From positions 1 through 24,843 of IMG/VR virus record IMGVR_UViG_3300032215_000295: DNA of 24,843 bases; one strand, given 5' to 3'. This document shows positions 5,435-24,843 of this stretch, in pieces. A program made the position numbers and the translations under genes. The stretch's first letter is position 1; each line of letters opens with the position of its first letter. The notes under the pieces were generated by a model. It searched no databases. It worked only from the letters and a program-made list of their open reading frames with translations, and was not told the origin of the DNA. Origin of the DNA: a virus.

Positions 5435-8400
5435 ATGGATAATTATTTTAAACCAAAAGGACAGGCAAGCACAAGTAAGCCTGAAGCAGGGGGAGGTGTA
5501 GTACGAAACACACCAGTAATAGGTGTGGTTAAGAATATTATTGACCCAACACGCGGTGGCAGAATTCAAGTATATATTTCTGACTTTGGATCGAATAAAC
5601 CTGATGACCACACATCATGGACTACGGTTGGATACATGACTCCGTTCTTTGGAGCCACCCCACCTTCAGGTGGTAAAGATACAAATGGAACATACTTAGA
5701 AAATCCTAGCAGTTATGGTATGTGGTATAGTCCACCTGATATAGGAAGTTTGGTTGTTTGTATTTTTATCAATGGTGATATCAATTATGGTTATTGGATT
5801 GGATGCGTACCTAAACCAGAAATCTTACAAATGGTTCCTGCAATTGGATCATTTGGTAATGTAATAACAAATGGTGGTGAAGCACAAAGTTATGGTGGCG
5901 CAACAGTACTACCTGTTACTAACATTAACACTAACAATAGTTCAATCAACGATAGTTCAAAATACTTAAATGCGGCAAAACCTGTACATAGTTATCAAGC
6001 AGGTATATTCTCACAGCAAGGATTATTAAGAGATGATGTTAGGGGTCCTATTACAAGTAGCGCATTGCGTGAAAGTCCTAGTCGTGTTGGTTGGGGCGTT
6101 AGCACACCCGGTAGACCAATCTATGAAGGTGGATATACTGACGCTACTATTAAAACAGCCGCATTAAATCAAGAAACAGACGCAAAAAAATTACAACTTG
6201 TATCTCGCAGAGGCGGACATAGTATTGTAATGGATGACGGTGATGTTGAAGGTAAAGACCAACTAATTAGATTTAGAACGTCAGCCGGTCACCAAATATT
6301 AATGAGTGACGATGGGCAAACATTGTTCATTGTTCATAGCAATGGGCAAAGCTATATTGAATTGGGTAGAGAAGGTACAATTGATATGTACTCTACTAAT
6401 TCAGTTAATATAAGAACACAGGGTGATTTGAACCTACATGCTGATAATAATATCAACATTAATGCAGGGAAAGATATCAATGTAGCTTCTAAAAATATTA
6501 ACATTAATACTGAAAAAGATATTAGCTTTAGAACAGGCGGAGACTTTAAGGGATATACAGTTGGTGCATACACATACAAGATTGATGGTGCAATGAGTAT
6601 GTCTAGCGGAGGTGAAGGATCATATGCCAGTGGCGGTATTATGTATATCAATGGAGAAAAGGTTAATTTAAATAGTGGTTCTACATCGGTAACTCCTGAA
6701 ACAACTTCTTTAATAAATGCAGTTGCTCACACTGATACTTTATTTGATAAGACTAAAGGCTGGGCTAGTGCTCCGGGTAAATTATTATCTATTGTTAGTA
6801 GAGCACCGGCGCACTCACCATGGGCAGGAGCAAATCAAGGTGTTAATGTTAAAGTTAGTAATAACTCAAGTGATGCACTGCCGCCGGCGCCAAGTGACGC
6901 AGTTGCCGCTACAAATGCATCTGCAACCACAACTCCAGAAAATGTTGTATCAACCGCAACAGCAAGTACGGTTCCTGCATTAGGTTCAACTAGTGGAGCA
7001 CTAGATGGCTCAGTTACAGCAACACTAGTTGGTGGAGTAGCCGCTCAAGCAGCCGGAGCCGCAAGTAGTGTTGTTGCAACAGGTACTGGTATCATTAAAG
7101 ACGCAACAGGTAGCTTAACAGCCGCAGTAGGTTCATTAGCACAAACACCAAAACAATTAGAGGTAGCAGGCATATTAAAACCTGGTTCTAGTACACTAAT
7201 CAACGGACTAGTGCAAGGTGGTTCGAATGTAGCAAGTGCTATGACTAACAACTTGTTCTCGGGTGTGCCAGGTGCACAAAACTTAACAGCACTAGCACAA
7301 AACACAACTGCTCAAGTTGGCGCACAAATTGCTAACTTTACTTCAGCACAATCTGCGCTTACTAAGTCAGGTATAATTACAGGTAATGAAGCACCCGGTG
7401 CAGTTGCAGGTTTAGTAAATGCTACCTCGCAGGTTGGTATAGGTGCAGTTAAAGACTTTGTACAAAATGCGGCTGGTGGTGCTGCCGGTGGGGTAACTAA
7501 TGCATTAAATAATGCAACGGGTGGAATAACTAATGCATTGAATGGAGCCGCAGGTGGTGTTGCCGGCGCAGTATCTAGTGCTATAGCAGGTGGAAACTTT
7601 GCTGCCGGTATAGGTACAAATCTTACTAGTGGTTTAGGTTCAATTGCTACTTCATTGGGTGGTATAGGAACATCTGCTATTAAGGGTATTAGTGGGGCAC
7701 TAGATGCAGCCAAAGGTATTGCTGGTTCAGCGTTTGCGGCAATTACTAAATCGTTTAAACCGTTTACAGCGGGCATACCTCAAAACTTAACAGCAATATC
7801 AGTTAAAAATGCGGCTGAACAAGCGGCATCCGAGGCCAGTGCCGCGGCAGGGGGTGCTAGTAGCTTGTTAGCAGATGCTACATCAAGTTTACCAAATCTT
7901 AACACCGGCAGTCTTACTGACCTAGCAAAAAGTGCTACAGGGTCATTAACGGCCTCAGTAGGTAACGCAGTCTCAGGAGCATCCAACTTACTAAACCAAG
8001 GCACTTCTGCGTTAGCTACCTTAGGGAATGCGGCTGGAGGCGCAGCCAGCGGGGTAACCAATGCTATCAGTACAATAGGTACAGCTACAGCATCATTGAC
8101 TGCTATTACGTCAAAAGTGTCAGGGGCATTTACCAGTGCAGGTAGCGCATCAGGCTTAGGTGGGCTTCCAGGCGGGGCAAGTGCAGTTGCAACATTAGTT
8201 AGTGGATCAGGTGCATTAGCAAGTATTCCAAATATTGGCGGAGTATCAGATTTAGTGAAAAATGTATCAACGGCTGCATTAAATGGAATAAATGCAGGAT
8301 CAAGTGCATTAGGTGCTGTAGCAGGATTAGCTACAGGTGGCGCCGGGGATGCATTGAATAAGTTAAAGAGTTTAGACGCAAACTCATTAGTAAAAGGACT

Positions 8401-8884
8401 AACAGCCGGTAATCAAAGTCTTGCATCGTTGGCTTCATTGGGTATGCCAGCAGGAGCAGCCGCCGCGTTGCAAGCTGGTATAAATGCACTGAGTACCCCG
8501 GGTTCAATACCTATCACACTACCAACTGTGGCAGCCGGAACAAACAATCGAGGACAGATAAACGCTCAATTAACTTCGGTATTGGGCAGTTCAAAAATAC
8601 CTATCCCAGATTATAGTGCAGAAATACAAAAATCTAAAGACGAACGTGAAGCAAAGAAAAAGAAAAATGATGAAATATTTGCTCAGGTAGATGAAATTAA
8701 AGTAGAACTTAAGGCTAAGGTTGCAGAATATCGCAAACTACAAACTGAGTGGCACAATTTAAGAGACTCATTGCCTGAAGGAACTCCTGAAATTGCAACT
8801 GCGTATCAGGCATATAGCGATGCTTGGGAAGAAGGTGAAAGAATTAAACTAAGAGCATTAAAACTCTTAAACACTGTAACTTAA
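5435..8884 (+). CDS. 5: Central tail spike, gp5/VgrG-like, with long Ala/Gly-rich C-terminal extension
   Basis: A 1149-residue protein. Residues about 23-130 look like the OB-fold of phage spikes (IGVVKNIIDPTRGGRIQVYI, TVGYMTPFFG, SPPDIGSLVVCIFINGD, YWIGCVP). Residues about 255-415 are the spike shaft: RRGGHSIVMDDGD, RFRTSAGHQILMSDDGQ, SYIELGREGTIDMYS, then alternating strands NIRTQGDLNLHADNNININA. This is the gp5/VgrG beta-helix that punctures the outer membrane. SRAPAHSPWAGANQGVNV (about 455-472) is where such proteins usually end. Here about 600 residues of Ala/Gly/Ser/Thr-rich sequence follow, then a charged, probably coiled-coil end (residues 1085-1149). No lysozyme domain is seen between OB and shaft, unlike T4 gp5. 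The ATG lies two bases after the hub stop without a clear ribosome site, suggesting coupled translation. Confidence 0.8.
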   Translation: MDNYFKPKGQASTSKPEAGGGVVRNTPVIGVVKNIIDPTRGGRIQVYISDFGSNKPDDHTSWTTVGYMTPFFGATPPSGGKDTNGTYLENPSSYGMWYSPPDIGSLVVCIFINGDINYGYWIGCVPKPEILQMVPAIGSFGNVITNGGEAQSYGGATVLPVTNINTNNSSINDSSKYLNAAKPVHSYQAGIFSQQGLLRDDVRGPITSSALRESPSRVGWGVSTPGRPIYEGGYTDATIKTAALNQETDAKKLQLVSRRGGHSIVMDDGDVEGKDQLIRFRTSAGHQILMSDDGQTLFIVHSNGQSYIELGREGTIDMYSTNSVNIRTQGDLNLHADNNININAGKDINVASKNININTEKDISFRTGGDFKGYTVGAYTYKIDGAMSMSSGGEGSYASGGIMYINGEKVNLNSGSTSVTPETTSLINAVAHTDTLFDKTKGWASAPGKLLSIVSRAPAHSPWAGANQGVNVKVSNNSSDALPPAPSDAVAATNASATTTPENVVSTATASTVPALGSTSGALDGSVTATLVGGVAAQAAGAASSVVATGTGIIKDATGSLTAAVGSLAQTPKQLEVAGILKPGSSTLINGLVQGGSNVASAMTNNLFSGVPGAQNLTALAQNTTAQVGAQIANFTSAQSALTKSGIITGNEAPGAVAGLVNATSQVGIGAVKDFVQNAAGGAAGGVTNALNNATGGITNALNGAAGGVAGAVSSAIAGGNFAAGIGTNLTSGLGSIATSLGGIGTSAIKGISGALDAAKGIAGSAFAAITKSFKPFTAGIPQNLTAISVKNAAEQAASEASAAAGGASSLLADATSSLPNLNTGSLTDLAKSATGSLTASVGNAVSGASNLLNQGTSALATLGNAAGGAASGVTNAISTIGTATASLTAITSKVSGAFTSAGSASGLGGLPGGASAVATLVSGSGALASIPNIGGVSDLVKNVSTAALNGINAGSSALGAVAGLATGGAGDALNKLKSLDANSLVKGLTAGNQSLASLASLGMPAGAAAALQAGINALSTPGSIPITLPTVAAGTNNRGQINAQLTSVLGSSKIPIPDYSAEIQKSKDEREAKKKKNDEIFAQVDEIKVELKAKVAEYRKLQTEWHNLRDSLPEGTPEIATAYQAYSDAWEEGERIKLRALKLLNTVT
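6888..8881 (+). other. Ala/Gly/Ser/Thr-rich extension and coiled-coil end of the spike
   Basis: This codes for roughly residues 485-1149 of the spike. It is built of short hydrophobic, small-residue helices broken by Gly (for example SAIAGGNFAAGIGTNLTSGL), with recurrent ASG/GGA/TNAL patterns and almost no charge until residue about 1070. The last 65 residues switch to a strongly charged segment (KSKDEREAKKKKNDEIFAQV) that looks like a coiled coil. It resembles no enzyme I recognise. Confidence 0.75.
7490..7555 (+). repeat. 33-base tandem repeat in the spike extension
   Basis: Two adjacent 33-base units (7490-7522 and 7523-7555) encode GVTNALNNATG and GITNALNGAAG. Both contain TAACTAATGCATT. 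A related GVTNAIS copy lies near 8055, suggesting the extension grew by small internal duplications. Confidence 0.75.
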
Positions 8885-8899: not shown

Positions 8900-9352
8900 A
8901 TGCCTAATTATATTGGATTTAATACACAAGACATAAACACATGCAAGCCTTCTAGCACATACAATGCTGGGGTTGACGGTGGCACTGGTTCATTGGTACA
9001 ACCAATCACATCCGGAAATAGCTTTAAACTAGTTGATAGTTCATTGGTGATTAGAGATTTTCTAAACGCATTAAACATACGACAGGGTGAGAAAGTTGGA
9101 CAACCTGAATACGGTACAGCATTATGGAGTTTTGTTTTTGAACCAAACACAGCAGATGTTCAATTTCAGTTAGAAAATGAAATACGTAGAGTAGCTAGCC
9201 TAGACCCTAGATTAATTTTAAATCTTGTTAGGGCGTATCCTCAAGAAAATGGTATTTTAGTTGAAGTTGAATTAGCTATATCCCCCTTTAATCAAGCACA
9301 GATGCTAAATGTGTTTTTTAATAACTCAACTAATACCGCAATTTTAAGATAA
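8900..9352 (+). CDS. 25: Baseplate wedge protein, gp25-like
   Basis: A 150-residue protein of the GPW/gp25 family (T4 gp25 is 132 aa; the type VI secretion homologue is TssE). Seen: VIRDFLNALNIRQGEKVGQP, then PEYGTALWSFVFEP (residues 69-82), ENEIRRVASLDPRL (92-105) and a closing VEVELAISPF strand. The family's EPR core motif appears here as DPR (102-104), a conservative change. In T4-type baseplates gp25 contacts the sheath and gp6/gp53 in the inner wedge and helps start sheath assembly. The first 40 residues are a polar N-terminal arm longer than in T4. No ribosome site precedes the ATG. It sits 15 bases after the spike stop and 52 bases before gp6. Confidence 0.88.
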   Translation: MPNYIGFNTQDINTCKPSSTYNAGVDGGTGSLVQPITSGNSFKLVDSSLVIRDFLNALNIRQGEKVGQPEYGTALWSFVFEPNTADVQFQLENEIRRVASLDPRLILNLVRAYPQENGILVEVELAISPFNQAQMLNVFFNNSTNTAILR

Positions 9353-9404: not shown

Positions 9405-12400
9405 ATGGCTACAAGTTCAAGACAATCAGGATTATTTGGTGTAAACGATTGGAAGGCTATCTACCAAACCTTCCAGCAGGCTGATTTTAGAAGCTACGAT
9501 TACGAAACACTTCGTAAGACGATGATTGATTATCTACGTCTATACTATCCTGAGACCTATAACGACTATATTGAATCAAGTGAATTTATTGCACTAATGG
9601 ACGTTATGGCGTTCATGGGACAGGGTATTGCTTTCCGTGATGACTTAAATACCCGTGAAAACTTTATTGATACTGCTGAACGTAGAGATAGTGTTATCAA
9701 ATTAGCTAACTTAGTAAGCTATACACCTAAGCGTAACTTAGCAGGACAGGGGTATTTAAAAGTTGTTAATATCCAAACTACTCAAAATCTCACTGATTTA
9801 AATGGTTTCAATTTAAGCAATGTTCCTGTACTATGGAACGACCCTGCAAACCCAAATTGGTTACAACAATTTAACACAATTATCAACGCTTCTCTAGTAA
9901 ATGCACAACAAGTTGGTAGACCAGCTAACTCACAAGATATTCTTGGTGTAACTACTAGCGAATATAACATTCAAATTCCAGCAGGAAGTTTACCAGTCGT
10001 GCCCTTCACTAGTACAGTTAATGGTATAACTATGGGATTTGAATTGTGCAGTGTAACAAGTGTTGGTACTGATTACATTTATGAAATTCCACCTGCACCA
10101 ACAAATCAATTTAACATGCTGTATCGCAATGACAAGTTAGGATACGGTAGTCCAAACACAGGATTCTTCTTTTACTTTAAACAAGGATCATTGCAAAGTT
10201 ATAACTTTACATTACAGCAACAAATTTCTAACCAAGTAGTCAACGTTGATATTCAGGGTATCAATAATACTGATACTTGGCTATATCAGCTTAACACTAA
10301 TAATGGCACATATGGTTATTGGCAACAAGTTGATAACATTTATGCGGATGCATATTTACAAACAGAATCAAGTAAAAGAAATATTTTTTCTGTAAACTCA
10401 AGATACAATGACCAAGTAAGTTATGTCTTTGGTGACGGTGTGTTTAGTCAAATACCAGTTGGAACATTCCGTGCATATGTTCGTGCAGGAAATGCACTAA
10501 CATATACAATTCAACCAAATGAGATGCAGGGACTTAGTGTAACGTTTAGTTATGTAAGTAGATTGGGTCGTGTTGAAACATTGACGGTAGGATTGGCACT
10601 ACAATTACCAGTGTCAAATTCACAAGTTCGTGAAAGTCTTGCACAGATTAAATTGAATGCCCCTAGTAGATACTATACACAAAATCGTATGGTTAACGGC
10701 GAAGATTATAATAACTTCCCATATACATTGTATAGTTCTATTATTAAATCAAAAGCAATTAATCGTAGTAGCGTTGGTATAAGTAAAAACTTAGATTTAT
10801 TAGACCCAACAGGAAAATATAGTAGTAGCAATAATTTTGCTAGTGACGGTGGTATTTGGTTAAATGCTAAGCCAGGTAATGCATTATTAACTATTAATGA
10901 CGTTGGTGATATTATTACATTCTTGTCAGGAACATTAGCGGCAGCATTAGCTGGTAATAGAGCAATGCAATACTATGTTCAATATTATAATAGGTACATA
11001 ATTGGCCCTACAAATAGTAGTAACGCAGGATACGTTCCTGACACTACTACTTCAAGTGTGTATTGGCAAACAAGTACAGTAGACGCAAGTAGTTTAAGTG
11101 GTTATTTTTATAATATTACTAATAATGTAGATACTAGTATTCCAATTGGCACATACTCTACGACTAATGCAAAATATATTACAACTGGTGCAATGTTAAA
11201 GTTTGTCGCACCCGCCGGCTATTACTTTGATAAGAACAATAGATTAGTAAGCGGTATTGCTACACCATCTGATACAACATTTATATGGACTACAGTATTA
11301 AATGTTGTAGGTGACGGATATAATAATGGTCAAGGTAGCTTTAGTAATGGTACAGGTCCTGTAACATTGAATGGTTTTATCCCAACAGGCGCTATCTTGT
11401 CAGTTGTGTTACCATCATTCACTAACGTATTATCTAATGCTGTTATTCAAGAGTGTATTACTAGACTTGAATTACAACAGAATTTTTCTCTAGTGTTTAA
11501 TAATTCATTAACGATTGCACAAGACAGATGGAGCGTAGAATTATATACTAATCCAAATTGGTTTGTACTTTTTGAAAGTGTTGGCTATAACCGCTATCAA
11601 GTTACATATCGTTCATTGGCATATTACTTTGGTAGTGTGTCAGAAACTAGATTTACATTTGAAACTGGCGCATTAGTTTATGATCCTTTCACTGGTAAAA
11701 TTTTACAAGACTTTGTTAAAGTTTTAGAAACCAATACTCAACCAGATAGTAATTATCCATTAAGCACTCCTGTAACAGCTAGTATTATTGGTCAAACAGT
11801 TGAGAGCGATGGGTACATTGATGACTTTGAAGTAGAAATTGCAAGCATTGATGTTAATAATAATTCAATTGTTGAAAACCCTGACTTCTTTAATCAAGTT
11901 ACAGGCTATGTTCCTAATGGTAGCAACATTGGCATTTATGCATTCTTTGAACAAGTTCAAGATGCAATTAATTTAACACGATATGATTTAATTCCTAGTA
12001 CTAGAGTATCTTATCAATATGCTACTCAATCACAAATTGAAGTTGTAAAATATGAATATCCAGTTGGACAATTATTTTATGCCTATACTGATAACATATT
12101 TTATATTACTGTACAGGATCCGGCAATAGCAACACCCTATTATGTTTTAGTAAAACAAAATCAATATAGTGTTGAGATTGGTCGTCAAGGATTAAGTTTT
12201 CAATACCGTCATAATAGTAACAATACCACACGTATTGATCCTGCCACAACTAACATTATTGATTTATACGTTGTAACACAGTCCTATTATACTCAATATC
12301 AAAATTATATTCAAGATAGTACTAATACTATTCCTAAACCAATACCACCTACAATTAACGAATTAACAACTCAATATTCACAATTACAAGATTACAAAAT

Positions 12401-12806
12401 GTTGAGTGATAGCGTTATAGTAAATAATGTAGTGTTTAAGCCTTTGTTTGGGCCTAAAGCAGATTCACTATTACAAGCAACGATTAAAGTTATTCCAAAC
12501 TCTACAACTAATGCAAGTAACAGTGAAATTATAAGTGCAGTGTTGACACAAATGAATAATTATTTTAATATTAGTAATTGGAACTTTGGAGATACATTTT
12601 ATTTTAGTGAGTTAAGCGCATACATTCATACCAACATCGGTGATTATGTAAGTTCATGTGTACTAGTACCAAATGATCCTACATTAGCGTTTGGTGATTT
12701 GTATGAAATTAAATGTATGCCTTACGAGATATTTGTAAATGCCGCAACAGCACAAGATATTCTTGTGATTGCCGCGCTTACACCGGCTGAGTTACAAGTA
12801 AAATAA
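9405..12806 (+). CDS. 6: Baseplate wedge protein, gp6-like, enlarged
   Basis: An 1133-residue protein. Residues about 50-120 carry the conserved N-terminal block of gp6/gpJ-type wedge proteins (YIESSEFIALMDVMAFMGQG, FRDDLNTRENFIDTAERRDS, LANLVSYTPKRNLAGQGYLK). VNGEDYNNFPY and KAINRSSVGISKNLDLLDP lie mid-protein. The C-terminus (residues about 1042-1133: LTQMNNYFNISNWNFGDTFY, SELSAYIHTNIGDYVSS, FGDLYEIKCMPYEIF) matches the gp6 end that forms the inner ring. In T4, gp6 dimers bind gp7, gp25 and gp53 and form the continuous ring of the baseplate. This one is about 470 residues longer than T4 gp6 (660 aa); extra beta-rich sequence lies in the middle. The ATG has a weak AGAG seven bases upstream. 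The next gene starts 10 bases after the stop. Confidence 0.85.
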   Translation: MATSSRQSGLFGVNDWKAIYQTFQQADFRSYDYETLRKTMIDYLRLYYPETYNDYIESSEFIALMDVMAFMGQGIAFRDDLNTRENFIDTAERRDSVIKLANLVSYTPKRNLAGQGYLKVVNIQTTQNLTDLNGFNLSNVPVLWNDPANPNWLQQFNTIINASLVNAQQVGRPANSQDILGVTTSEYNIQIPAGSLPVVPFTSTVNGITMGFELCSVTSVGTDYIYEIPPAPTNQFNMLYRNDKLGYGSPNTGFFFYFKQGSLQSYNFTLQQQISNQVVNVDIQGINNTDTWLYQLNTNNGTYGYWQQVDNIYADAYLQTESSKRNIFSVNSRYNDQVSYVFGDGVFSQIPVGTFRAYVRAGNALTYTIQPNEMQGLSVTFSYVSRLGRVETLTVGLALQLPVSNSQVRESLAQIKLNAPSRYYTQNRMVNGEDYNNFPYTLYSSIIKSKAINRSSVGISKNLDLLDPTGKYSSSNNFASDGGIWLNAKPGNALLTINDVGDIITFLSGTLAAALAGNRAMQYYVQYYNRYIIGPTNSSNAGYVPDTTTSSVYWQTSTVDASSLSGYFYNITNNVDTSIPIGTYSTTNAKYITTGAMLKFVAPAGYYFDKNNRLVSGIATPSDTTFIWTTVLNVVGDGYNNGQGSFSNGTGPVTLNGFIPTGAILSVVLPSFTNVLSNAVIQECITRLELQQNFSLVFNNSLTIAQDRWSVELYTNPNWFVLFESVGYNRYQVTYRSLAYYFGSVSETRFTFETGALVYDPFTGKILQDFVKVLETNTQPDSNYPLSTPVTASIIGQTVESDGYIDDFEVEIASIDVNNNSIVENPDFFNQVTGYVPNGSNIGIYAFFEQVQDAINLTRYDLIPSTRVSYQYATQSQIEVVKYEYPVGQLFYAYTDNIFYITVQDPAIATPYYVLVKQNQYSVEIGRQGLSFQYRHNSNNTTRIDPATTNIIDLYVVTQSYYTQYQNYIQDSTNTIPKPIPPTINELTTQYSQLQDYKMLSDSVIVNNVVFKPLFGPKADSLLQATIKVIPNSTTNASNSEIISAVLTQMNNYFNISNWNFGDTFYFSELSAYIHTNIGDYVSSCVLVPNDPTLAFGDLYEIKCMPYEIFVNAATAQDILVIAALTPAELQVK

Positions 12807-12816
12807 AGAATAAAAA

Positions 12817-15800
12817 ATGGCTACAAGAATTAGAACGTTAGATTTTCTACCAGAAATATTTAAGACACCTACCAACGCACAATTCTTAAGTGCAACGTTG
12901 GATCAGCTTACGTCACAACCTAATACTAAAAAAATTCAAGGTTATATAGGCAGTAAGTTTGGTTATGGTGTCAATCCAAACAATTACTACGTAACTGAAC
13001 CAACGAAAACAAGAACAGACTATCAGTTAGAACCTGGTGTTGTATTTACTAAACAAAGCGAAACAAACGCAAAAGATTTCATTAGCTATCCTGGCATTTT
13101 AGATGCACTAAAACTTCAAGGTGGTATAACTGATAATAATGATAGATTGTTTAACAGTCAATTCTACTCATGGGATCCTTTTGTTGACTTAGACAAAATT
13201 ATTAACTTTAATCAATATTATTGGTTACCAGCCGGGCCACCAGCAGTTAATATCTCTACAACCATTATATACAATTCTGTTAACTACTTGGTACAAAATC
13301 AAGCTGACTCATATTTGATTTCTTCAAATATAGAACCAACAGGAACAGTTAATCCAACATTAACACTGTTGCGTGGCGGAACATATACTTTTACGGTAAA
13401 TCAAAATAGCCAATTTTGGATTCAAGGCGCACCAGGTGTTACTGGGTATAGTCCAACTCAACCTAATTTACAAACACGTAGCGTATACGGAGTTTCAAAT
13501 AATGGTGCAGAGTATGGAGTTATAACATTTCAAGTACCTGAAAAAAATGCATTAGACCAATATAATTTCCCAACAGGTCCTACAGTTGATGTTATATCTA
13601 CATTACCTTTTAGTCAGGTTAATGGCGCATTAGTAAGTACGTTAGGCGGTATTGATGGTGTAACATCATTAAACAACTTAACTGTTATGTTTTACGACAC
13701 TGGAGTTGAAGATGAATATGGTTATGTAAATCAATTTTATGGACAAACTTTGTTTGACCAATCGCCTAATAATCCTTTTGTATTTCCAGGCACACCGTTA
13801 GACGATAATAATTATGAAGGTGGATATTATACAGAAGTCAACTCTACTTTCTACACAATTAATTTAATTGGTGATCCTAGCAATCCTCAAATTCAATTAA
13901 CACCCTCAGCTACTATTCCTACTAACCAAAAGATAAAAGCAGTTTATGGTACTCAGTGGATTAACTTAAACTTTTTTAGAAACACCAATGGTACTATTCA
14001 ACAACTCCCATATGATAGCGCAATATTAGATACATTGTATTATCAAGATGGTACTACTGCAAGTAAAGTTGGTGTTATCAAACTTGTTGATAACAACAAT
14101 CTTAATACATTAAACATTGATACTGAAATTTTAGGTAAAAAACAATATACGTCAACTTCAGGTGTAGTGTTTACTAATGGATTAAAAGTAACATTTCAGG
14201 GTGATATTTATCCTACAAAATATGCAAGCGGAGAATATTATGTGCAAGGTGTTGGTACTGCAATTGAATTGATTGCTACTACTGAATTGGTAAGTCCTGG
14301 TTTATTTGCAGAAGGTCAATATATACCTTATGACACTACCACATACGATATTGGTAACTATGATATTACATTGTACATTCCAGTAGAACAAGATTACATA
14401 ACTATTGCTAGAAATTCTATTAATAGAAATGCTTGGTCACGTAGTAATCGTTGGTTTCACGTTGATGTCATCAATGCAACGGCTACATACAATAATGATC
14501 CAACCATTATTTCAACCTATGCAACACAAGCCGCTAAAGCAGTAAGACCAATTATTGAGTTTTATCCAAACTTGCAATTGTTTAATTCAGGTACAATTGG
14601 AAAATTGCCTATTGACTTTATAGATACTAGAACAACTGATGCATTCTCTCAAGTTGCAGGTAAAACAAATTATTATCCAGACGTAGCAGGCTATACAGCA
14701 TATAATGCTACTATTGCTCCTGTAACAGGCCCATCTACAAAAACTGCAACTAATACAACTGCATTAATAAATCAAATTACATTAAACAATACTACTGGTT
14801 TATTTGTAAATGATACGATTACATTTACTGGTTCTGCATTTGGTGGGATAAGCACAGGTGTTACTTATTATATTACTAATATTACTGGTAATAACATAAC
14901 TATATCAACTTCAAAACAAGGTACTACACTATCATTAACTACAGCTAGCGGTTCACTAAGTGCCTCAGTTTATCCTTATAGTACACTTATTACTATACCC
15001 ACAGCTAGTGTATCTGGATTATTTGAGATAGGTCAATATATTGCAGACTCAACCTTAGTATTACCGTCAATTACTTTTATCACTGATATTCAAAAAGTTG
15101 GTAGTAATACAGTACTTACAGTATCATGGTATAACCAATCGATTATTGCAGGTACAAGTGTAGCATCAGTAGTAACCGCAAATACTGCACTAAGTAATTA
15201 TGGTTTATTTGATGGTTCTAGAGTTGTGTTTGCCACAGACACTAACATAACCGTAAGAAACAAAATTTATGTTTCACAGTTTTCTACTACAGCAACAAAT
15301 GGCACACCTGTAATTACATTAACTGAGGCTGAAGATGGATTGGTATTACCATATGAACAAACTACAGTTTATCGTGGTTATAATTATCAAGGTACAGATT
15401 TTTACTACAATGGTTCTAAATGGTTAGAAGGTCAACAAAAAACAAATATAAATCAAAAACCATATTTTGATGTGTTTGACAACAACGGGGTAAGTTTTGG
15501 TGACTCTACTGTCTATCAAGGTACATCATTTATCGGTTCTACTTTGTTCTCATATGGTATTGGCACAGGTACAAACGATTCAGTATTGGGCTTCCCAATA
15601 TTATATTCTGGTGTAACAAACATTGGTGATATTTCATTTAGTGTAACATTTAACAATGACACATTTACATATGTAAGTGGGTTAGCACCAATAACACAAA
15701 AAGTTAATACTGGTTATGTGTATAATTATACTATCGATGGCAGTACATATGTTCGTCAATTGGGTTGGCAGACCGCTGTATCACCTAGTGTACAATATCA

Positions 15801-18800
15801 AATTTTTGAATTTACTACAACAGTAAACACTACACCTACATTAGTAACTACGAACACATTCACATGTGATATTGCACCATTGAGTTCAAGTAGTGCTATT
15901 CAATGGCCTTCTATACAAGTATACGTTGACAACACATATTTAGACCCTGCTAATTATACTATCACCACAACCAATACTACAACAGTAATTCAAATACCTT
16001 CAACTTATGTTCCTATAAAAGAAACAGTAGTTCAAATTTTAATATTAAGTGACCAAGTTAGTGCAACTGCGTACTATCAAACACCTATCAATATTAATAA
16101 CAATCCGTTTAACACAGATATTACTGTAGCAAACGTTGGTGATATTCGTAGACAGTATCAAAGTATTTTCTACAACAATCCAAACACAACAGGTCAAATT
16201 TTTGGACCAAACAACTATCGTGACTTAGGTAATTTAGTACCTTGGGGGAACGCTATTATTCAAAATAGTGCTAGTTTGGTATTACCGGGCGCATTCTTGC
16301 GTGGACCAGCCCATAACTTATTTGATTCACTATTGTATAATGGTAGAGAGTATATAACTTTTAAAGACTTATTAGTATACACAGTTAATAGTACAAACTA
16401 TACAAGTATATTAACACCTGCACAAATGCTAGATGATGCGTTGACACAAATAGCATCAACTCATTCCTCAGAACAATCATTCTTTTGGAGTGATATGGTT
16501 CCTTGTAATGCACCATATATATCAAACACATATACATTTGCTAACTCATTAGATATTAGTATCTATCCATTAAGCACAATCTATGATTTTACTACTGCAA
16601 ACTATAGCAGTGTGTTAGTTTATTTGACTAGAAATAATGTCCAAACTCAGTTAATAAGAGGTGTTGATTATACAGTAAGTTCTACTGCTCCCTCATTGAC
16701 TATTACATATAGCTTGTCACAGGGTGACATAATCACAGTAAACGAATACAATAAAACATATGGTAGCTATGTTCCAAACACACCTACTAAATTAGGTTTG
16801 TATCCTGCAACTATTCCTAGCGTATCATTAGATACTGCATACTATCAACCAACATACTTTATTGTTGGTCATGATGGTTCATATAATAAATTGTATGGCA
16901 ACTATAATCCAACAACAGAAACACTTGATGACTTCAGAGACCAAGTATTACTTGAATATGAAACACGTGTGTACAACAACTTAAAACTTAGTAACGTTAT
17001 TCCTATACAAGAGTATCAAGTATTACCTGGTTTTTTCAGAACCACTCAATATTCATATGATGAATTCTTACAAGTTTATAGTGAAGGATTTTTAAATTGG
17101 GTTGGTACAAATAGAATTGACTACAAAACACAATTCTACTCAAAGGCAAATGATTTTACATATAATTATACCACCAACAGCAATAAACTAAATCAAGAAC
17201 CTATCCAACAAGGTTACTTTAGAGGTCTGTATTTGTATTATTATGATACAAGTACACCTGACCAAACACCATGGGAAATGATAGGTTACACTACACAGCC
17301 AACATGGTGGGCAAGTAGATATGGCTCAGCTCCGTATACTAGTGATAACTTAGTGTTATGGAATGACATGGCAGAAGGTGTTAATTGGAATGACGGCAAA
17401 CCTTTTGTAAATGAAATTTATGTACGTGATGGATTGTTAAATGTGCTTCCTGTAGATAGCAACGGTGATTTAGTATCACCAATGGTATCTATACTTGGTA
17501 ATTATAATGCTAACTCATTCCAGCGTGATTGGAAAGTGGGAGATGTTGGACCTGCAGAATTCAGTTACCGCAGAAGTAGTACATGGCCTTTTGATTTAAT
17601 GAGACTATACGCATTGGCTAAGCCTGCACAGTTCTTTAATTTAGGCGTAGACGTTGACAACTACAAATACAATGCTGAATTTAATCAATTTTTGGTGAAT
17701 GGTAGAAACCATTTAATAATAAAAGATATCCCTATCTATGGTACAGGAACTCCTGCAACTAGTTATATTAACTGGATAGTTGATTACGAAAAACAATTGG
17801 GTATTGATTCTACTGGTCAAATTACTAATTTGTTTAACAACCTAGATGTACGTTTGGTATATAGATTAGCAGGCTTCAGTGATAGCTCATTATTAAATTT
17901 CTATCTTGAAAAAAGTTCTGCAAACAGTAACAACAGTTCATTGTTAATTCCTAGCGAAAGCTATAATGTAGTATTATATGAAAATCAACCATTCGACAGA
18001 ATTGTGTACAGTGGTGTGGTAATTCAAATAACTGCAAATGGTTACAAGGTATATGGTAATAGCCAAACTAATGCGTACTTTAAAGTTCTTGTGCCTAACC
18101 CTGCATCACACCCTGAAAACATAAGTGTAGATAATTTATCAGTAAAACTTTCAACTAAGTTTTATGATAAAGTTGTGTTGGTGCCCTATGGAACTGAATT
18201 TTACTCAGCACAAGAAGTAGCACAATTTATCAATGGTTATAGTGCATACCTAGCATCACAGGGTATGATTTATGATACTGTAGAAAATGGAATACCTGTA
18301 ACTTGGTATCAAATGATTACTGAGTTCTTGTATTGGGCACAAATGGGTTGGGATACAGGTGTAATCACTACACTTAATCCTTCTGCCGCATCACTATCAA
18401 TTAATAAAGATAGTTATATTGTACAACCATTAGCGTTACAACAACGTAACTTTGTGTTAAATCAAAACTTATATCCAATAAAAAATAATGATTTAGCTAT
18501 ACAGCGTGATGGTACGTTATTCCATGTTTGTCCTAAGAACCAGGGTGATGCAATAAGCTATGGACAGTTCAATATCAGTAACATTGAACATGGTATTGTA
18601 TTCAGTAACATTACATTGTTTAACGATATTGTTTATAACTTAGTAACAGGTCTAAGACAAAATAGAATTTATGTACGTGGTGTAAAAACTGCTGATTGGA
18701 ACGGTACATTAGATGCTAATGGATTTATTTTAAATCAAAATAATATTCTACCATGGGATCCTACTGTTACATACACAACAGGTAGTATTGTAACATATAA

Positions 18801-21800
18801 AAACAAATATTGGTTTGCATTACAAATCGTTCAACCAAATTCAACATTTGTTGAAAAGAGTTGGAAAATTACAGAATATAATGAAATACAAAAAGGCCTA
18901 CTACCAAACGGACAAACACGTGCCTATGAATCTACTTTATATTATGATACATATAAAAATAACTTAGACGAAGATGCTAATTTACTAAGTTATAGTTTAA
19001 TTGGTTATAGACCAAGAGATTATTTGGCTACTGTTGATTTAACAGATATTACTCAAATCAATGTTTATCAAAACATGATTAGAGAAAAGGGTACAAAAAA
19101 TGCATTAAATGCCTTTAAAGGAGCCAGCTTACCACAAGGTGGAATTAATTATGACGTATATGAAAATTGGTCTATACTGTCAGGTGAATTTGGTGCCACA
19201 CTTAATAACAACTACGTAGACTTAATTCTACAGCAAAATTTACTTACCGGTAATCCAAGCATTGTTGGTTTAACAAATGGTGAATATACTGATGGTGTCC
19301 AACAAGAAGTACCATTATATTCATTAGCTAACTATTCAGAAACAATTTCTGATCCTAATATATTACCAACTATATCTCCATTAACTCCTAATGACTTGTT
19401 CCCTACTGCTGGTTATGTGAATTTTAATGATGTTAAAATGTCAAGTTTTTACTATTCAGGATTATCAACTGCACGTAATATCAACGGAACAGTGATTCCT
19501 TTAAGTGATTTTTATGTGCGTGATTATGCTTGGGTTGCAAACTACTTAAGCGATTGGGATGTGTTCACCCCTATCAGTATAGGTTCTATCATTGATGCTA
19601 AAAATAATTTAAATGGCACTGTTACTATTACTTTCACCCAGCCACATAATTTAAAACAATATCAAATTTTTGCAATCGTTAATTTCAATACGCAAATCAA
19701 TAACTATTATATTGTTGCTGGTATAATTGATCCAAACAGGGTATTAATTAACTTATCATTGAACCCACAGTTAACAAACATAACAGGGTTAGGTATTGGA
19801 TTTAAGTTTGATAGTCAACGAGTTGCATCAGCTCCTGAAATTTCAACACTACCATCATTACTTGATAACGAATTCAATAGTACGTTGGTGTGGACAGATA
19901 CAAACAATGACGGTAGTTGGGCAGTATATAAAAAGACACTAAATTACAAATATGATGCTGAAATTTTACTTCCAGCAAGCGAAACATTTGGAACAGCAGT
20001 TGCATACTCAACTAATTTGGGATATTTAATAGGTGATAGCGCGGCTGGTAAAGTATATAGATATGAATATAATACAGTATATAATACCTATGTGCCAAAA
20101 CAAACACTTACTCACAGTGCAACATTTGGTAGCACTATATCATATAGTGGTAATACATATGTTATATCAGAAACTTCAGGTAATGTTTACATTTATGAAT
20201 TAGTAACCAATACCTTAGTTAACGCATTGGGATTAACACAAACTATCCCTGCACAGGGTGGTGCAACAAACTGGGGTTATGCTACGGCAATATCAGGTGA
20301 TAAAAATTGGTTGTATATATCTGCTACTGATTTGAATAGAGTTTATGTATACCGTAAATCAAGTGTAACAAATTTATATGAGTTGATGACTTCATTGACT
20401 GTTGCAGGTTTAGATGCTGATGCTGAATTTGGTTACTCAATTGCAACGGATTATTACGGTGATTCTGTAGTTATTGGCGCACCTTATCAAAATTACGATG
20501 TTAACACAAATAGTTATGGTTATGCATATGTGTTTAATAGAACTGTTCAAACATTTGAAGCCAATAATGCAAGCCAATCATACATACCTCAAGCGTATGC
20601 ATTGGCTTGGACTCCAACAACCACAACAAAAACTACGACAAGTTATACTAGTAATGCTTTAGTTCTAAGTAATACAATAGGTGTAGCTGTTAATACGCCG
20701 TTTGTTATAACAGGAACACCGTTTGGTGGATTGGCACTTAACACAGTGTACTACGTTAAAACTATTGCTGGTAATAACATAACAGTATCACTGACTAGAG
20801 GTGGAACTGCATTTACTTTAGTTGGCCCCGGTGGTTCAATGGATTTAATAATGCAAAATGATCCATTGTATGTAACAATCAATGGAACATCGATTAATGA
20901 TAATAGTTATGCTGTAATTGGTTCAACATTGTATATGTACAGTCAAGCAGTACCTATATTAAATTACGGCGATTTACTAACAGTAAGCAGTCCTAATTTT
21001 GTACTAGCAAAAACATTCACAAATGAAGAAACACCTAGAATTGGTGTAGAGTTTGGCACAAGTGTTGCTACAAACAGTTTTGCTAATGAAATTTTAATTG
21101 GTGCACCTTTCGAACTAAGCCCTGAAAATTACGAGGGTGCAGTCCACAGATTTACTAATGGTGGTGAAAAATATGGTATCATAGTTGGTACAGATACATG
21201 TAATATAACTACAACTAGAAAAATCTTATTGAATGGTTTTGTTGTTACTCTGTTACCGGGTAATGCTTCTACTATCAGTAACATTATTAATAATAGTAAT
21301 ATCACTAATGTTACTTCAGCCGCAGTAGATGGTAAATTAATTATTCAATTGATTGACGTAGCATTGGGTCAAGCAAGCAACAAGTTATCATTAACAGTAT
21401 TAGACACTGCAACATTGAGCGAATTAGGAATTAATTTATTCACACAAACACAAAAAATTATGTGTCCTCATTTAACAGGACCCACACAATTTGGTTCAAC
21501 AATTAAGTTCAATGAGTTTGGTTCATCTATTGTTGTTAGTGCACCGGCTGGTACACGCTACTCAGCAACAACATTTGACTTTACTGATGACGGCTTAGAT
21601 AACGATACTGTTTTTGATAACAATGCAACGCAATGGGTTGATCCTTTTGTAAACGCAGGTGCAGTATATATGTTTGATTATTTAGGTGCTTATAACGAAA
21701 GTTTAGATACACCGGGTAAATTCGTATACGCACAAAGTGTTAACGCATATGACTTAGACTATGGTTCACAACCAATGTATGGTACTGCATTAGATTACCA

Positions 21801-24800
21801 CAACAATGTTGTAACAATTGGTACACCTAATTTTAATCCAACAACATACAACAACGATACTAATGGTCAAGTGATAGCATATGTAAGTACAAGTTCAACT
21901 AATGACTGGGCCGTTTACAGAACAACAAGTGAAATTGTTGACATAAACAACATTGGTCCTATATTAATTTACAGTGCAGAAACAAATAACACATTAGTAA
22001 ACTTAGATTACTTTGATCCATTGCAGGGTAAAATGTTAGGTGCTGTTAGAGAAAACATCGACATCATTAGTAATACTGATCCTGCTGTGTATAACTCTAT
22101 TGGTAGCACATTAGGTGGTAGAGTTTGGGGTGCAGAAAATGTTGGTAAACTTTGGTTCGACACATCTACTACACGTTTTGTAAATTATCATCAAAACGAT
22201 ATATCATATAACAGTAGATTTTGGGGTACAGTATTCCCAGGAAGTAATGTTTCTATATATTCATGGGTAGCAAGTAATGTACCTCCTAATCAATATACTG
22301 GTCCAGGAACTGCACGTTTAATAGACACATATGTGGTACATGCTGACATTGACGCACAGGGTGCTATTGTACCAATTTATTATTTCTGGGCTAAAAATAC
22401 CAACGTAGTAAATCAAGCACAAGGAAAAACTCTAGCTGATTCTACATTAGAATTATATATTTCACAACCGCAGGGTAGTGGTATTAGTTACTTCTCACCA
22501 TTATTACCAAATATATTTGCACTATACAACTGTAGCGATTTTATTAATAATAGAGATTCTGTATTACACGTTGGTTATTCTTCTGGTAATGGTAACGGAG
22601 TAGCACACACCCAATATAATTTAATACGTGCAGGATATCCTGACGATTTCTTACCAGGTCTACCAACTTATACTCAATATAATATAAGAGGTTCTGCACT
22701 ATCAAATCAACCTACTAGCCTATATGCTAGAATGTTGGATAGTCTATCCGGCACAAATCGTGCTGGTGCAGTGGTTCCCGATCCGTTCTTACCTCCTCCG
22801 GTACGTACTGGTGTACTAGTAAGACCAAGACAAAGTTTCTTCTATGATAGATTGGGCGCATTAAACAATTATATCAACGGGGCAAATGCCGTGTTACTTC
22901 AGTACCCGTTCAATGAAATAGCTAATAGCGTTTTCCTATATAAAGTGGGTGAGACTAATCCTTCTACTAAATTACCTTTCTACGATGTGGGTAACTATGT
23001 TGAAAATGTTAACTGGTGGGCACCAGGATATAATAATAACACAAGAGCCAGTGTACAAGTACCTATATATGCTGATTTGTCAACACTAAATGTTCCTCCA
23101 GGGACAATTGCAAGTGTTCAACAAAATGGTAACGGTTTCCAAGAAACATATGTTTTAGATACTGCATTGGGGTGGGTTCGTATTGGTTTGCAATACGGTA
23201 CAATTCAAATTAGTAGTGCAATATATGATTATGCAAATAATTCTATTGGTTTTGGTAACAACTTCTATGATACTACCCCATATGACACATATCCAAGTGA
23301 AGAAACACGTTATATCATTCGTGCATTAAACGAAGAACTACCTGACAGTTTACTACCCTTCAGAAATACAGGTTTAATACTGTTGTTTGAATACATCCAA
23401 TCAGAGACAATAGAAAATCAAAACTTCTTACCGTGGTTAAATAAAACATCATTGGTTGACGTTTCACATACTATTCGTGAACTAATTCCGTTACAAGTAT
23501 TTCAAAGTGATAACCAAATATTTCTAGAGGGTTATATCAATGAAGTTAAACCTTATCACGTTGTTATTAAAGATTTCTTATTTGCATATACAAAAACAGA
23601 TGTATATGAAGGTTACATAACTGATTTCGATTTACCAGCACAATATAATAATACTGTTAAACAATTTATTACTCCTGAATTGGTATATTCTAATCCAAGC
23701 GGGGATAATCAATATTTACCAACTGATCCGATATGGCAACAAAGCGCATATGTGCAGTGGTTCAACAATTATGGATTAAGCATTATTGGTGAAAATTCAT
23801 ATCCAATATCAACATTAGAATCTTATTTGGCATTTAATACAAATTCTTGTTATGTTAATAACATAACAGGCTTCCCAGTAACCGGTGTGATAACAATCAA
23901 CGGTGAAGATATTTCGTATTCAAATGTAAATTTAGCAACTGGGCAATTATTAGGTTTATCACGTGGGTATAATGGTACTGCTATCACACAGCATATACCC
24001 GGTGAACCAATAGTAATGAATCTACCGCCGGTATTAGTGTTGAACACAGGTAGAGGATATTCTAACCCACCAAAAATTACTGCTTATATTGACACAACAA
24101 TTTATCCTGCACCAAGAGTACAAGCGACATTCACAGCCATTATGAATTTGGATAAAGTGATTGGCGTTACTGTTACTAACCCAGGACAAGGTTATGCTGT
24201 ACTACCAAAGATTGTTATTGATCCTGCATTCGTTGTTACTATAAGTAGCACACAGGTTAATACAACTAATAACACACTTGATTTAATAACTCCATTACTA
24301 ACAACAGGTGATTTAGTTGTATATACTCCTGCAGATGGTGCAACTGTTATAGGTGGATTAATTGCAGGTGAAAGATATTTTGTCAACGTATTAGAATCTA
24401 GTCCAAATATTGTTGTTGCATTATATGAATCATATTTAAATTGTATCAACGATGATGGTCGTATACCATTGATATCAACAGGAACAGGATATCAAAACTT
24501 TAGCGTTGGTGCTGTTGCAAGTTGCATATCAAGTGCTATACCAGTAAGAGAAAACAGCATTAGATTAAAATTTGATAGAACAACATATAACAGTCAAGTG
24601 ATTGATTGGCAACCAAGTGGTTATTATGGTGCATTCTATGCCGGCACATATTCAAATAGTGAATTAGTATCAAGTCCATCTATTACATTAGAAAGCACTC
24701 AACCAAGTATTAGTACAGTGTTAGCTAGTGCGGAAGGTGCACCTTTTGAAATTTTAAATGTAACTAATAATCAAGATTTAATTTGGTCATCTCGTACAAG

Positions 24801-24843
24801 AAATACAGTGCAGACATATGGATCTGCTAGTTTATATCCTAAC
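12817..24843 (+). CDS. Giant modular baseplate/virion protein, partial (at least 4009 aa)
   Basis: Translation from the ATG at 12817 (TAAAGAATAAAAAATG, weak ribosome site) shows no stop to the window end: 4009 codons, C-terminus missing. The N-terminus (TLDFLPEIFKTPTNAQFLSA, KIQGYIGSKFGYGVN, LEPGVVFTKQ, FYSWDPFVDLDKIINFNQYY) looks like a family of very large structural proteins found beside gp6 in T4-superfamily phages. Visible parts: cupredoxin-like domain (residues about 181-255); GNNIT/YYV modules (664-720, 2625-2680, 3829-3901); a region with FGPNNYRDLGNLVPWG and PGFFRTTQYSYDEF; a CBM5/12-like motif (about 1977-2021); FG-GAP-like blades (about 2390-3025); VGKLWFDTSTTRFVNYHQND, VRPRQSFFYDRLGALNNYIN and GYINEVKPYHVVIKDFLFAY blocks; then GFP-GLSRGYNGTA and G-GY strand repeats. 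T4 has gene 7 (1032 aa, wedge) after gene 6, so a gp7-like role is possible, but I see no clear gp7 similarity. Receptor or polysaccharide contact at the baseplate rim is inferred from the modules. Confidence 0.8.
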   Translation, partial: MATRIRTLDFLPEIFKTPTNAQFLSATLDQLTSQPNTKKIQGYIGSKFGYGVNPNNYYVTEPTKTRTDYQLEPGVVFTKQSETNAKDFISYPGILDALKLQGGITDNNDRLFNSQFYSWDPFVDLDKIINFNQYYWLPAGPPAVNISTTIIYNSVNYLVQNQADSYLISSNIEPTGTVNPTLTLLRGGTYTFTVNQNSQFWIQGAPGVTGYSPTQPNLQTRSVYGVSNNGAEYGVITFQVPEKNALDQYNFPTGPTVDVISTLPFSQVNGALVSTLGGIDGVTSLNNLTVMFYDTGVEDEYGYVNQFYGQTLFDQSPNNPFVFPGTPLDDNNYEGGYYTEVNSTFYTINLIGDPSNPQIQLTPSATIPTNQKIKAVYGTQWINLNFFRNTNGTIQQLPYDSAILDTLYYQDGTTASKVGVIKLVDNNNLNTLNIDTEILGKKQYTSTSGVVFTNGLKVTFQGDIYPTKYASGEYYVQGVGTAIELIATTELVSPGLFAEGQYIPYDTTTYDIGNYDITLYIPVEQDYITIARNSINRNAWSRSNRWFHVDVINATATYNNDPTIISTYATQAAKAVRPIIEFYPNLQLFNSGTIGKLPIDFIDTRTTDAFSQVAGKTNYYPDVAGYTAYNATIAPVTGPSTKTATNTTALINQITLNNTTGLFVNDTITFTGSAFGGISTGVTYYITNITGNNITISTSKQGTTLSLTTASGSLSASVYPYSTLITIPTASVSGLFEIGQYIADSTLVLPSITFITDIQKVGSNTVLTVSWYNQSIIAGTSVASVVTANTALSNYGLFDGSRVVFATDTNITVRNKIYVSQFSTTATNGTPVITLTEAEDGLVLPYEQTTVYRGYNYQGTDFYYNGSKWLEGQQKTNINQKPYFDVFDNNGVSFGDSTVYQGTSFIGSTLFSYGIGTGTNDSVLGFPILYSGVTNIGDISFSVTFNNDTFTYVSGLAPITQKVNTGYVYNYTIDGSTYVRQLGWQTAVSPSVQYQIFEFTTTVNTTPTLVTTNTFTCDIAPLSSSSAIQWPSIQVYVDNTYLDPANYTITTTNTTTVIQIPSTYVPIKETVVQILILSDQVSATAYYQTPININNNPFNTDITVANVGDIRRQYQSIFYNNPNTTGQIFGPNNYRDLGNLVPWGNAIIQNSASLVLPGAFLRGPAHNLFDSLLYNGREYITFKDLLVYTVNSTNYTSILTPAQMLDDALTQIASTHSSEQSFFWSDMVPCNAPYISNTYTFANSLDISIYPLSTIYDFTTANYSSVLVYLTRNNVQTQLIRGVDYTVSSTAPSLTITYSLSQGDIITVNEYNKTYGSYVPNTPTKLGLYPATIPSVSLDTAYYQPTYFIVGHDGSYNKLYGNYNPTTETLDDFRDQVLLEYETRVYNNLKLSNVIPIQEYQVLPGFFRTTQYSYDEFLQVYSEGFLNWVGTNRIDYKTQFYSKANDFTYNYTTNSNKLNQEPIQQGYFRGLYLYYYDTSTPDQTPWEMIGYTTQPTWWASRYGSAPYTSDNLVLWNDMAEGVNWNDGKPFVNEIYVRDGLLNVLPVDSNGDLVSPMVSILGNYNANSFQRDWKVGDVGPAEFSYRRSSTWPFDLMRLYALAKPAQFFNLGVDVDNYKYNAEFNQFLVNGRNHLIIKDIPIYGTGTPATSYINWIVDYEKQLGIDSTGQITNLFNNLDVRLVYRLAGFSDSSLLNFYLEKSSANSNNSSLLIPSESYNVVLYENQPFDRIVYSGVVIQITANGYKVYGNSQTNAYFKVLVPNPASHPENISVDNLSVKLSTKFYDKVVLVPYGTEFYSAQEVAQFINGYSAYLASQGMIYDTVENGIPVTWYQMITEFLYWAQMGWDTGVITTLNPSAASLSINKDSYIVQPLALQQRNFVLNQNLYPIKNNDLAIQRDGTLFHVCPKNQGDAISYGQFNISNIEHGIVFSNITLFNDIVYNLVTGLRQNRIYVRGVKTADWNGTLDANGFILNQNNILPWDPTVTYTTGSIVTYKNKYWFALQIVQPNSTFVEKSWKITEYNEIQKGLLPNGQTRAYESTLYYDTYKNNLDEDANLLSYSLIGYRPRDYLATVDLTDITQINVYQNMIREKGTKNALNAFKGASLPQGGINYDVYENWSILSGEFGATLNNNYVDLILQQNLLTGNPSIVGLTNGEYTDGVQQEVPLYSLANYSETISDPNILPTISPLTPNDLFPTAGYVNFNDVKMSSFYYSGLSTARNINGTVIPLSDFYVRDYAWVANYLSDWDVFTPISIGSIIDAKNNLNGTVTITFTQPHNLKQYQIFAIVNFNTQINNYYIVAGIIDPNRVLINLSLNPQLTNITGLGIGFKFDSQRVASAPEISTLPSLLDNEFNSTLVWTDTNNDGSWAVYKKTLNYKYDAEILLPASETFGTAVAYSTNLGYLIGDSAAGKVYRYEYNTVYNTYVPKQTLTHSATFGSTISYSGNTYVISETSGNVYIYELVTNTLVNALGLTQTIPAQGGATNWGYATAISGDKNWLYISATDLNRVYVYRKSSVTNLYELMTSLTVAGLDADAEFGYSIATDYYGDSVVIGAPYQNYDVNTNSYGYAYVFNRTVQTFEANNASQSYIPQAYALAWTPTTTTKTTTSYTSNALVLSNTIGVAVNTPFVITGTPFGGLALNTVYYVKTIAGNNITVSLTRGGTAFTLVGPGGSMDLIMQNDPLYVTINGTSINDNSYAVIGSTLYMYSQAVPILNYGDLLTVSSPNFVLAKTFTNEETPRIGVEFGTSVATNSFANEILIGAPFELSPENYEGAVHRFTNGGEKYGIIVGTDTCNITTTRKILLNGFVVTLLPGNASTISNIINNSNITNVTSAAVDGKLIIQLIDVALGQASNKLSLTVLDTATLSELGINLFTQTQKIMCPHLTGPTQFGSTIKFNEFGSSIVVSAPAGTRYSATTFDFTDDGLDNDTVFDNNATQWVDPFVNAGAVYMFDYLGAYNESLDTPGKFVYAQSVNAYDLDYGSQPMYGTALDYHNNVVTIGTPNFNPTTYNNDTNGQVIAYVSTSSTNDWAVYRTTSEIVDINNIGPILIYSAETNNTLVNLDYFDPLQGKMLGAVRENIDIISNTDPAVYNSIGSTLGGRVWGAENVGKLWFDTSTTRFVNYHQNDISYNSRFWGTVFPGSNVSIYSWVASNVPPNQYTGPGTARLIDTYVVHADIDAQGAIVPIYYFWAKNTNVVNQAQGKTLADSTLELYISQPQGSGISYFSPLLPNIFALYNCSDFINNRDSVLHVGYSSGNGNGVAHTQYNLIRAGYPDDFLPGLPTYTQYNIRGSALSNQPTSLYARMLDSLSGTNRAGAVVPDPFLPPPVRTGVLVRPRQSFFYDRLGALNNYINGANAVLLQYPFNEIANSVFLYKVGETNPSTKLPFYDVGNYVENVNWWAPGYNNNTRASVQVPIYADLSTLNVPPGTIASVQQNGNGFQETYVLDTALGWVRIGLQYGTIQISSAIYDYANNSIGFGNNFYDTTPYDTYPSEETRYIIRALNEELPDSLLPFRNTGLILLFEYIQSETIENQNFLPWLNKTSLVDVSHTIRELIPLQVFQSDNQIFLEGYINEVKPYHVVIKDFLFAYTKTDVYEGYITDFDLPAQYNNTVKQFITPELVYSNPSGDNQYLPTDPIWQQSAYVQWFNNYGLSIIGENSYPISTLESYLAFNTNSCYVNNITGFPVTGVITINGEDISYSNVNLATGQLLGLSRGYNGTAITQHIPGEPIVMNLPPVLVLNTGRGYSNPPKITAYIDTTIYPAPRVQATFTAIMNLDKVIGVTVTNPGQGYAVLPKIVIDPAFVVTISSTQVNTTNNTLDLITPLLTTGDLVVYTPADGATVIGGLIAGERYFVNVLESSPNIVVALYESYLNCINDDGRIPLISTGTGYQNFSVGAVASCISSAIPVRENSIRLKFDRTTYNSQVIDWQPSGYYGAFYAGTYSNSELVSSPSITLESTQPSISTVLASAEGAPFEILNVTNNQDLIWSSRTRNTVQTYGSASLYPN
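13357..13581 (+). other. Cupredoxin-like domain in the giant protein
   Basis: Residues about 181-255 read TLTLLRGGTYTFTVNQNSQF, then WIQGAPGVTGY, GVSNNGAEYGVITFQVPEKN. The order (strand, TF-V, F-I--APG, GV-NNG---G-ITF-VP) matches cupredoxin-fold domains. The usual copper ligands are not evident: the His expected before PFWI is replaced (NSQFWI), and no C---H follows. It is probably a structural, metal-free copy. Confidence 0.45.
14806..14976 (+). repeat. GNNIT/YYV module, copy 1
   Basis: Residues about 664-720: VNDTITFTGSAFGG, TGVTYYITNITGNNITISTS, then a Gly/Ser strand. It pairs with copies at 20689-20856 and 24301-24519. The stretch CTGGTAATAACATAAC is shared with copy 2 at the DNA level. 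Confidence 0.6.
18745..18879 (+). other. CBM5/12-like carbohydrate-binding motif in the giant protein
   Basis: Residues about 1977-2021: ILPWDPTVTYTTGSIVTYKN, then KYWFALQIVQPN and a closing KSWKI. The spacing W---TY--G-IV-Y---YW-A------W is that of the short CBM5/12 (chitin-binding type 3) fold, whose surface aromatics stack on sugars. It suggests glycan contact, but such motifs also serve as plain structural modules in phage tails. Confidence 0.45.
20689..20856 (+). repeat. GNNIT/YYV module, copy 2
   Basis: Residues about 2625-2680: VNTPFVITGTPFGGLALNTV, then YYVKTIAGNNITVSLTRGG. Same order of strands as copy 1 (F-ITG--FGG, YYV, GNNIT-S, G-TAF-L). It lies inside the propeller region. Confidence 0.6.
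21190..21432 (+). other. Flagellin-hook-IN-like segment
   Basis: Residues about 2792-2872: RKILLNGFVVTLLPGNAST, ISNIINNSNITNVTSAAVDG, KLIIQLIDVALG, LDTATLSELGI. The layout (-NG--V-L--G--ST---I-N-INN---ITNVTA---DG-L-I) is that of the hook IN motif found in flagellar hook-associated proteins and some phage structural proteins. It appears to be inserted between propeller blades 5 and 6. Confidence 0.4.
23869..24225 (+). other. GFP/RGYNGTA module followed by two G-GY strand repeats
   Basis: GFPVTGVITINGEDISYSN and LGLSRGYNGTAITQHIPGEP (23869-24015) form a compact beta module I associate with phage structural proteins. It is followed by two related repeats: NTGRGYSNPPKITAYID (24043) and TNPGQGYAVLPKIVIDPA (24175), pattern G-GY--PPKI-I. 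Function is not evident. Confidence 0.4.
24301..24519 (+). repeat. GNNIT/YYV module, diverged copy 3
   Basis: TGDLVVYTPADGATVIGGLI, AGERYFVNVLESSPNIVVAL and GTGYQNF follow the strand order of the two other modules (GD-V-F/Y, GG---G--Y-V, N-I-V), but sequence identity is low and the match is less certain. Confidence 0.35.

Follow-up and report, generated by a model that had tools for sequence, protein, structure and literature searches.

The long reading frame at the right-hand end of the DNA analysed here (a complete IMG/VR record of 24,843 bases, called the window below) is a real, truncated gene of a known but uncharacterised virion protein family, and its product is an enlarged variant that is absent from the cultured phages searched. 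This product is one of the longest versions in the family, and its size alone is not unprecedented. It is probably part of the virion baseplate, taking the gene-7 position in a large phage of the jumbo type with a contractile tail, and would combine conserved wedge blocks with outward host-binding modules. The genes of the window and the features of the giant protein are collected in Table 1.

The frame starts from the ATG at position 12817 and has no stop as far as the last base; because the window is the entire record, the gene is cut short where the contig stops. At the base composition of the frame, stops are expected at 7.5% of codons, or about 1 per 13 codons, and an open run of 4,009 codons has a chance probability of log10 P = -135 (about 1e-135), while stops make up 5.8–12.4% in the other five frames. 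When the frame was compared with the closest complete relative (L010), the differences at codon positions 1, 2 and 3 were 0.18, 0.11 and 0.41 overall, and in each 250-codon block the third-position differences exceeded those of the first and of the second position. This excess in every block shows translation and selection along the whole frame, and 12817–24843 is therefore one coding frame under uniform purifying selection from end to end. A chance open frame was rejected on both grounds, and the preliminary description of a frame of at least 4,009 codons, open at the window end, is borne out. The start codon is supported because many relatives begin with near-identical residues (MATRIRTLxFLPEIF).

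For a survey of protein length, we took the best 80 relatives in IMG/VR, 38 of which contain both gene ends. All 38 encode the protein as a single frame of 4,927–6,673 aa (median 6,283), which makes a frameshift or chimeric join unlikely. L010, whose protein has 6,337 aa and 690 kDa, is 78% identical over 4,003 aligned residues and colinear, and the window end aligns with its residue 4,013. With the uniform codon-position bias added to these results, we give almost no credence to a frameshift or assembly error that fused separate genes, a scenario named in the preliminary description. The lengths of these relatives indicate that the full protein probably has about 6,300 aa, with a mass around 690 kDa if it is like that of L010. 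At least 570 relatives of the gene were found in environmental viral contigs and none in the bacterial genome contigs searched. The PA5oct and SCTP-2 proteins, used as single queries against the viral contigs, retrieved no relatives; patterns made from one sequence are probably too specific.

Table 1. Genes in the window and features of the giant protein (aa, residues of the giant protein)
Feature	Position	Strand	Remarks
gp55-like late sigma factor	1–576		Opposite direction to the tail genes
Structural protein	705–2354	+	
gp53-like wedge protein	2348–2668	+	
Structural protein	2670–5432	+	
gp5-like hub protein with OB domain	5435–8884	+	
gp25-like wedge protein	8900–9352	+	
gp6-like baseplate wedge protein	9405–12806	+	Immediate upstream neighbour of the giant gene
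Giant virion structural gene	12817–24843	+	Cut off at the contig end after 4,009 codons; complete protein expected to have about 6,300 aa
Conserved N-terminal domain, aa 1–160	12817–13296	+	LPEIF...DYQLEP...INFNQYYWLP; common to all cultured relatives compared
Beta module copy 1, aa 642–715	14740–14961	+	E 1e-23
Family core, aa 1060–2240	15994–19536	+	Best-conserved block; partial fold, mean pLDDT 54
Beta-sandwich, aa 1233–1312	16513–16752	+	Similar to attachment domains of phage tail fibres and tailspikes (N-terminal part of CBA120 TSP4, N-terminus of T7 gp17)
CBM5/12-like (chitin-binding type) domain, aa 1975–2021	18739–18879	+	Pfam below cut-off; fold match
K-G-T, aa 2091–2093	19087–19095	+	Candidate equivalent of the gp7-type TKG/KGT stretch
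FG-GAP beta-propeller insert, about aa 2360–3010	19894–21846	+	Interrupted by module copy 2
Beta module copy 2, aa 2604–2677	20626–20847	+	E 1e-19; inside the propeller
Second conserved block, aa 3024–3660	21886–23796	+	Matched at least partly in 6/6 cultured relatives compared

The gene order in the window is gp53, hub, gp25, gp6 and giant gene, and the last two are separated by 10 nt. Among 153 loci of relatives with enough upstream DNA, some of them near-duplicates, gp6 was found upstream on the same strand in every case (no more than 500 bases away in 152) and gp25 in 148, so that the placement of the frame directly after a gene 6 homolog, noted at first for this DNA, holds across these relatives. 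The same order is present in PA5oct, GAP32, 121Q, CBB and Vibrio phage 2.275.O. The Salicola phage SCTP-2 is an exception, where the giant gene does not adjoin gene 6; a hypothetical protein of ~3,096 aa (L003 8609–17899) precedes it there, and the gp6 homolog is about 90 kb away. Two other genes of the window have peculiarities of their own. Within the structural gene at 705–2354, a 120-bp repeat unit (YTTDSLGNxYKNGELYRA...; 1174–1479) is present in about 2.5 copies. The hub protein scores slightly below the Pfam cut-off for an OB domain and has no lysozyme match; the C-terminal half of its chain is rich in Ala and Gly, and GC rises locally to 46%.

The giant protein matches PHROG_10938, annotated as "virion structural protein", in five stretches (E 1.6e-248, 829 bits), with the best match at aa 1080–1979. 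By tblastn, 57 phage records contain a homolog, each of them remote (<60% identity); they include Rak2-like phages, PA5oct-like phages, Atu_ph07, Phosso and SCTP-2, and the cultured homologs examined, Rak2-like phages, PA5oct and Atu_ph07 among them, have 3,323–4,449 aa. Two members of the family have been detected in purified virions by mass spectrometry: 17 unique peptides were obtained for phAPEC6 gp245 (381.88 kDa), which adjoins the baseplate wedge protein gp244 in the published table (PMC7247149 Table 1), and 21 for CBB_236, of about 3,340 aa (PMC5259590 Table 4). Three points other than sequence comparison led us to take phAPEC6 gp245 as a homolog: how large it is, that it follows the wedge protein, and that phAPEC6 is closely related to 121Q. 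The record of PA5oct gp355 also carries an ESI-MS/MS note. The family is thus a virion component in relatives, which answers for them, as regards presence in the particle, the proteomics check suggested in the preliminary description; by analogy with these homologs our protein may be regarded as one. The preliminary assignment to a large structural-protein family was accordingly correct. PHROGs places the family in the head and packaging category, a label that is probably mistaken and open to revision.

Peptide coverage of phAPEC6 gp245 and CBB_236 is only 7.6–7.7% (PMC7247149, PMC5259590), which leaves room for a polyprotein that is cleaved after translation into several virion proteins. We regard such processing as very unlikely, in view of the single frame kept by every complete relative (n = 38) and of the cited virion tables, in which the homolog is given as one product; no processing site was noticed in the sequence.

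Within the best-conserved block, a first fold of aa 1060–2240 from 34 sequences gave a mean pLDDT of 54.5, so that short parts alone were usable. The structural match of the beta-sandwich (Z 8.4, rmsd 1.9, 64 residues) is borderline by the yardstick of the tool. The CBM5/12-like domain scores 17.0 bits against a Pfam cut-off of 26.2, and its predicted fold matches with Z 7.8 and rmsd 1.1 over 45 residues. A second fold, of aa 1846–2262 from 126 sequences, reached a pLDDT of 75.5; structure searches with it led mostly to the CBM-like domain, and the matches listed included no solved chain of gp7, TssG or gpI. The propeller insert has an FG-GAP_2 match of 25.1 bits against a Pfam cut-off of 23 in one stretch and internal repeats with a self-alignment E of 8e-11, and it was found in the present clade and in a minority of remoter contigs. 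In the C-terminal part of L010, which is missing from the present contig, 'DGxTW' repeats seen by eye mark another propeller-like region.

Two features set the clade apart: the FG-GAP propeller insert and a C-terminal extension of some 2,300 residues in which a beta module of ~75 aa is abundant. Complete clade members carry 9–16 module copies, mostly beyond residue 4,000, except for the 4,927-aa member with a single copy, whereas the six cultured relatives have none, and the region of module copy 1 had no match in cultured phages. Across 33 distinct proteins, longer chains have more copies (r 0.91; 0.82 when the short outlier is left out), with a gain of about 106 residues per copy. Because the modules total just 665–1,144 residues per protein, the short outlier aside, they do not explain the whole extension. 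For each of 404 module copies, a copy in another phage was at least as close as any in the same protein, indicating that the array is old, and recent tandem duplication was rejected as its source. When the module was compared with solved structures, weak matches to antibody V domains appeared (best E 0.056), which we took as chance.

Kinship with T4 gp7 could not be found at the level of sequence. No gp7 was among the Pfam and PHROG matches to the giant protein, and hhalign against T4 gp7, with narrow and then broader alignments, gave nothing significant (best probability 5%). The best match that involves cyanophage gp7 (probability 12%, aa 3650–4009) was read as a small shared beta motif and not as core homology. 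Across the 126 diverse members compared, the K-G-T stretch is at least 90% invariant; it lies between predicted helices, much as in gp7 and in the protein of the cyanophage DSL-LC03; alignment to the latter sets KGT on KGT with a score that is not significant.

The match to PHROG_10938, the fixed gene order, the virion mass spectrometry of homologs, the FG-GAP propeller, the CBM5/12-like fold and the attachment-type sandwich speak for a baseplate protein at the gene-7 position. A rim location, as named in the preliminary description, may be surmised from gene order. The conserved blocks (the N-terminal domain, aa 800–2250 and aa 3024–3660) probably bind gp6 and partners and build the wedge, while the sandwich, the CBM-like domain, the FG-GAP propeller, the beta modules and the second, C-terminal propeller probably project outward, where they would hold fibres and touch sugars of the host surface. 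Such sugar contact may help to trigger sheath contraction, and six copies of the protein would be present if it is like gp7. The wedge place, copy number, fibre holding, sugar binding and part in contraction triggering are all inferred. Counted against the baseplate reading are the lack of a significant relation to T4 gp7, the lack of gp7, TssG and gpI among the structural matches listed, the gene order of SCTP-2 and the head and packaging label.

Some of the same evidence can be read differently. Sugar-binding-type and propeller modules, an attachment-type sandwich and the absence of gp7 homology in hhalign, together with the unusual fibres and whiskers on Rak2-like phages (PMC5259590, PMC7247149), would also suit a giant peripheral adhesin or fibre-network protein, such as a whisker or branched-fibre base, that merely adjoins gene 6 while another protein takes the place of gp7. 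We find this unlikely, because the place after gp25 and gp6 is fixed, with gp6 upstream at all the loci surveyed, because long conserved blocks are common to all relatives, as expected of a core assembly part, and because no other gp7 candidate was seen within the window. A baseplate protein at the gene-7 position remains our preferred interpretation. A more ambitious form of it, which is speculative, is that the gene-7 wedge protein has become in this clade a single ~700-kDa chain that unites the wedge core, the fibre holder and several host-binding modules, with the C-terminal array as a new type of rim or skirt; if this is true, the baseplate would be some 4 MDa heavier with six ~700-kDa copies. 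A virion family in the wedge position, common in environmental viral contigs, can evidently reach almost 6,700 residues through the addition of beta modules and propellers, and the giant protein is a concrete target for studies of how jumbo phages construct their baseplates and carry extra host-binding parts.

We finally compare the giant protein with known systems. It shares with T4 gp7 the position directly downstream of gene 6, but T4 gp7 has 1,032 aa and is 4–6 times smaller; the ratio of about four estimated at first is 3.9 (4,009/1,032) for the part in the window and would probably rise to about 6 with the complete gene. The cultured members of PHROG_10938 (GAP32 gp230, 121Q 582, CBB_236, phAPEC6 gp245, PA5oct gp355 and Atu_ph07 gp180; also SCTP-2) are homologous at aa 1–160, ~526–600, ~800–2240 and ~3024–3620, with 23–37% identity in most blocks, and in most of them the gene has the same place after gene 6. 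Those examined differ from the complete members of the present clade in being shorter and in lacking the ~75-aa module.

The third system is that of the cyanophage DSL-LC03, which has a 4,107-aa protein directly after gp6, annotated as baseplate wedge initiator, and a second very large gene, of about 2,574 aa (L118 22135–29859), two genes after it. The giant cyanophage protein (PHROG_2885 and PHROG_701) is matched by PHROG profiles of 4,179 and 6,136 positions. Since PHROG_10938 was already known and proteins of such size occur at the gene-7 position in cyanophages, the impression of an unprecedented protein given by the preliminary description is not supported. A T4-gp7-like stretch near the N-terminus of the cyanophage protein (aa 149–216; PHROG_964, E 9e-6) is a feature of the cyanophage, and no relation of core sequence between the two giant proteins was detected. 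Judging from these comparisons, giant gene-7-position proteins exist in a second phage group, and loose modules are shared without a detectable common core. Residues 926–1051 of some remote family members (L132 and L133) are about 41% identical to residues 1256–1375 of DSL-LC03 gp7, a region with a YHYH-type motif (AYDGNPIYG), and modules seem to have been exchanged between the giant proteins of such members and DSL-LC03. The wedge initiator with its gp7-like stretch and a C-terminal propeller related to that of the present clade (E 2e-13) supports a gene-7-position reading of our protein, which resembles its cyanophage counterpart in giant size, in its place after gp6 and in its richness in beta modules.
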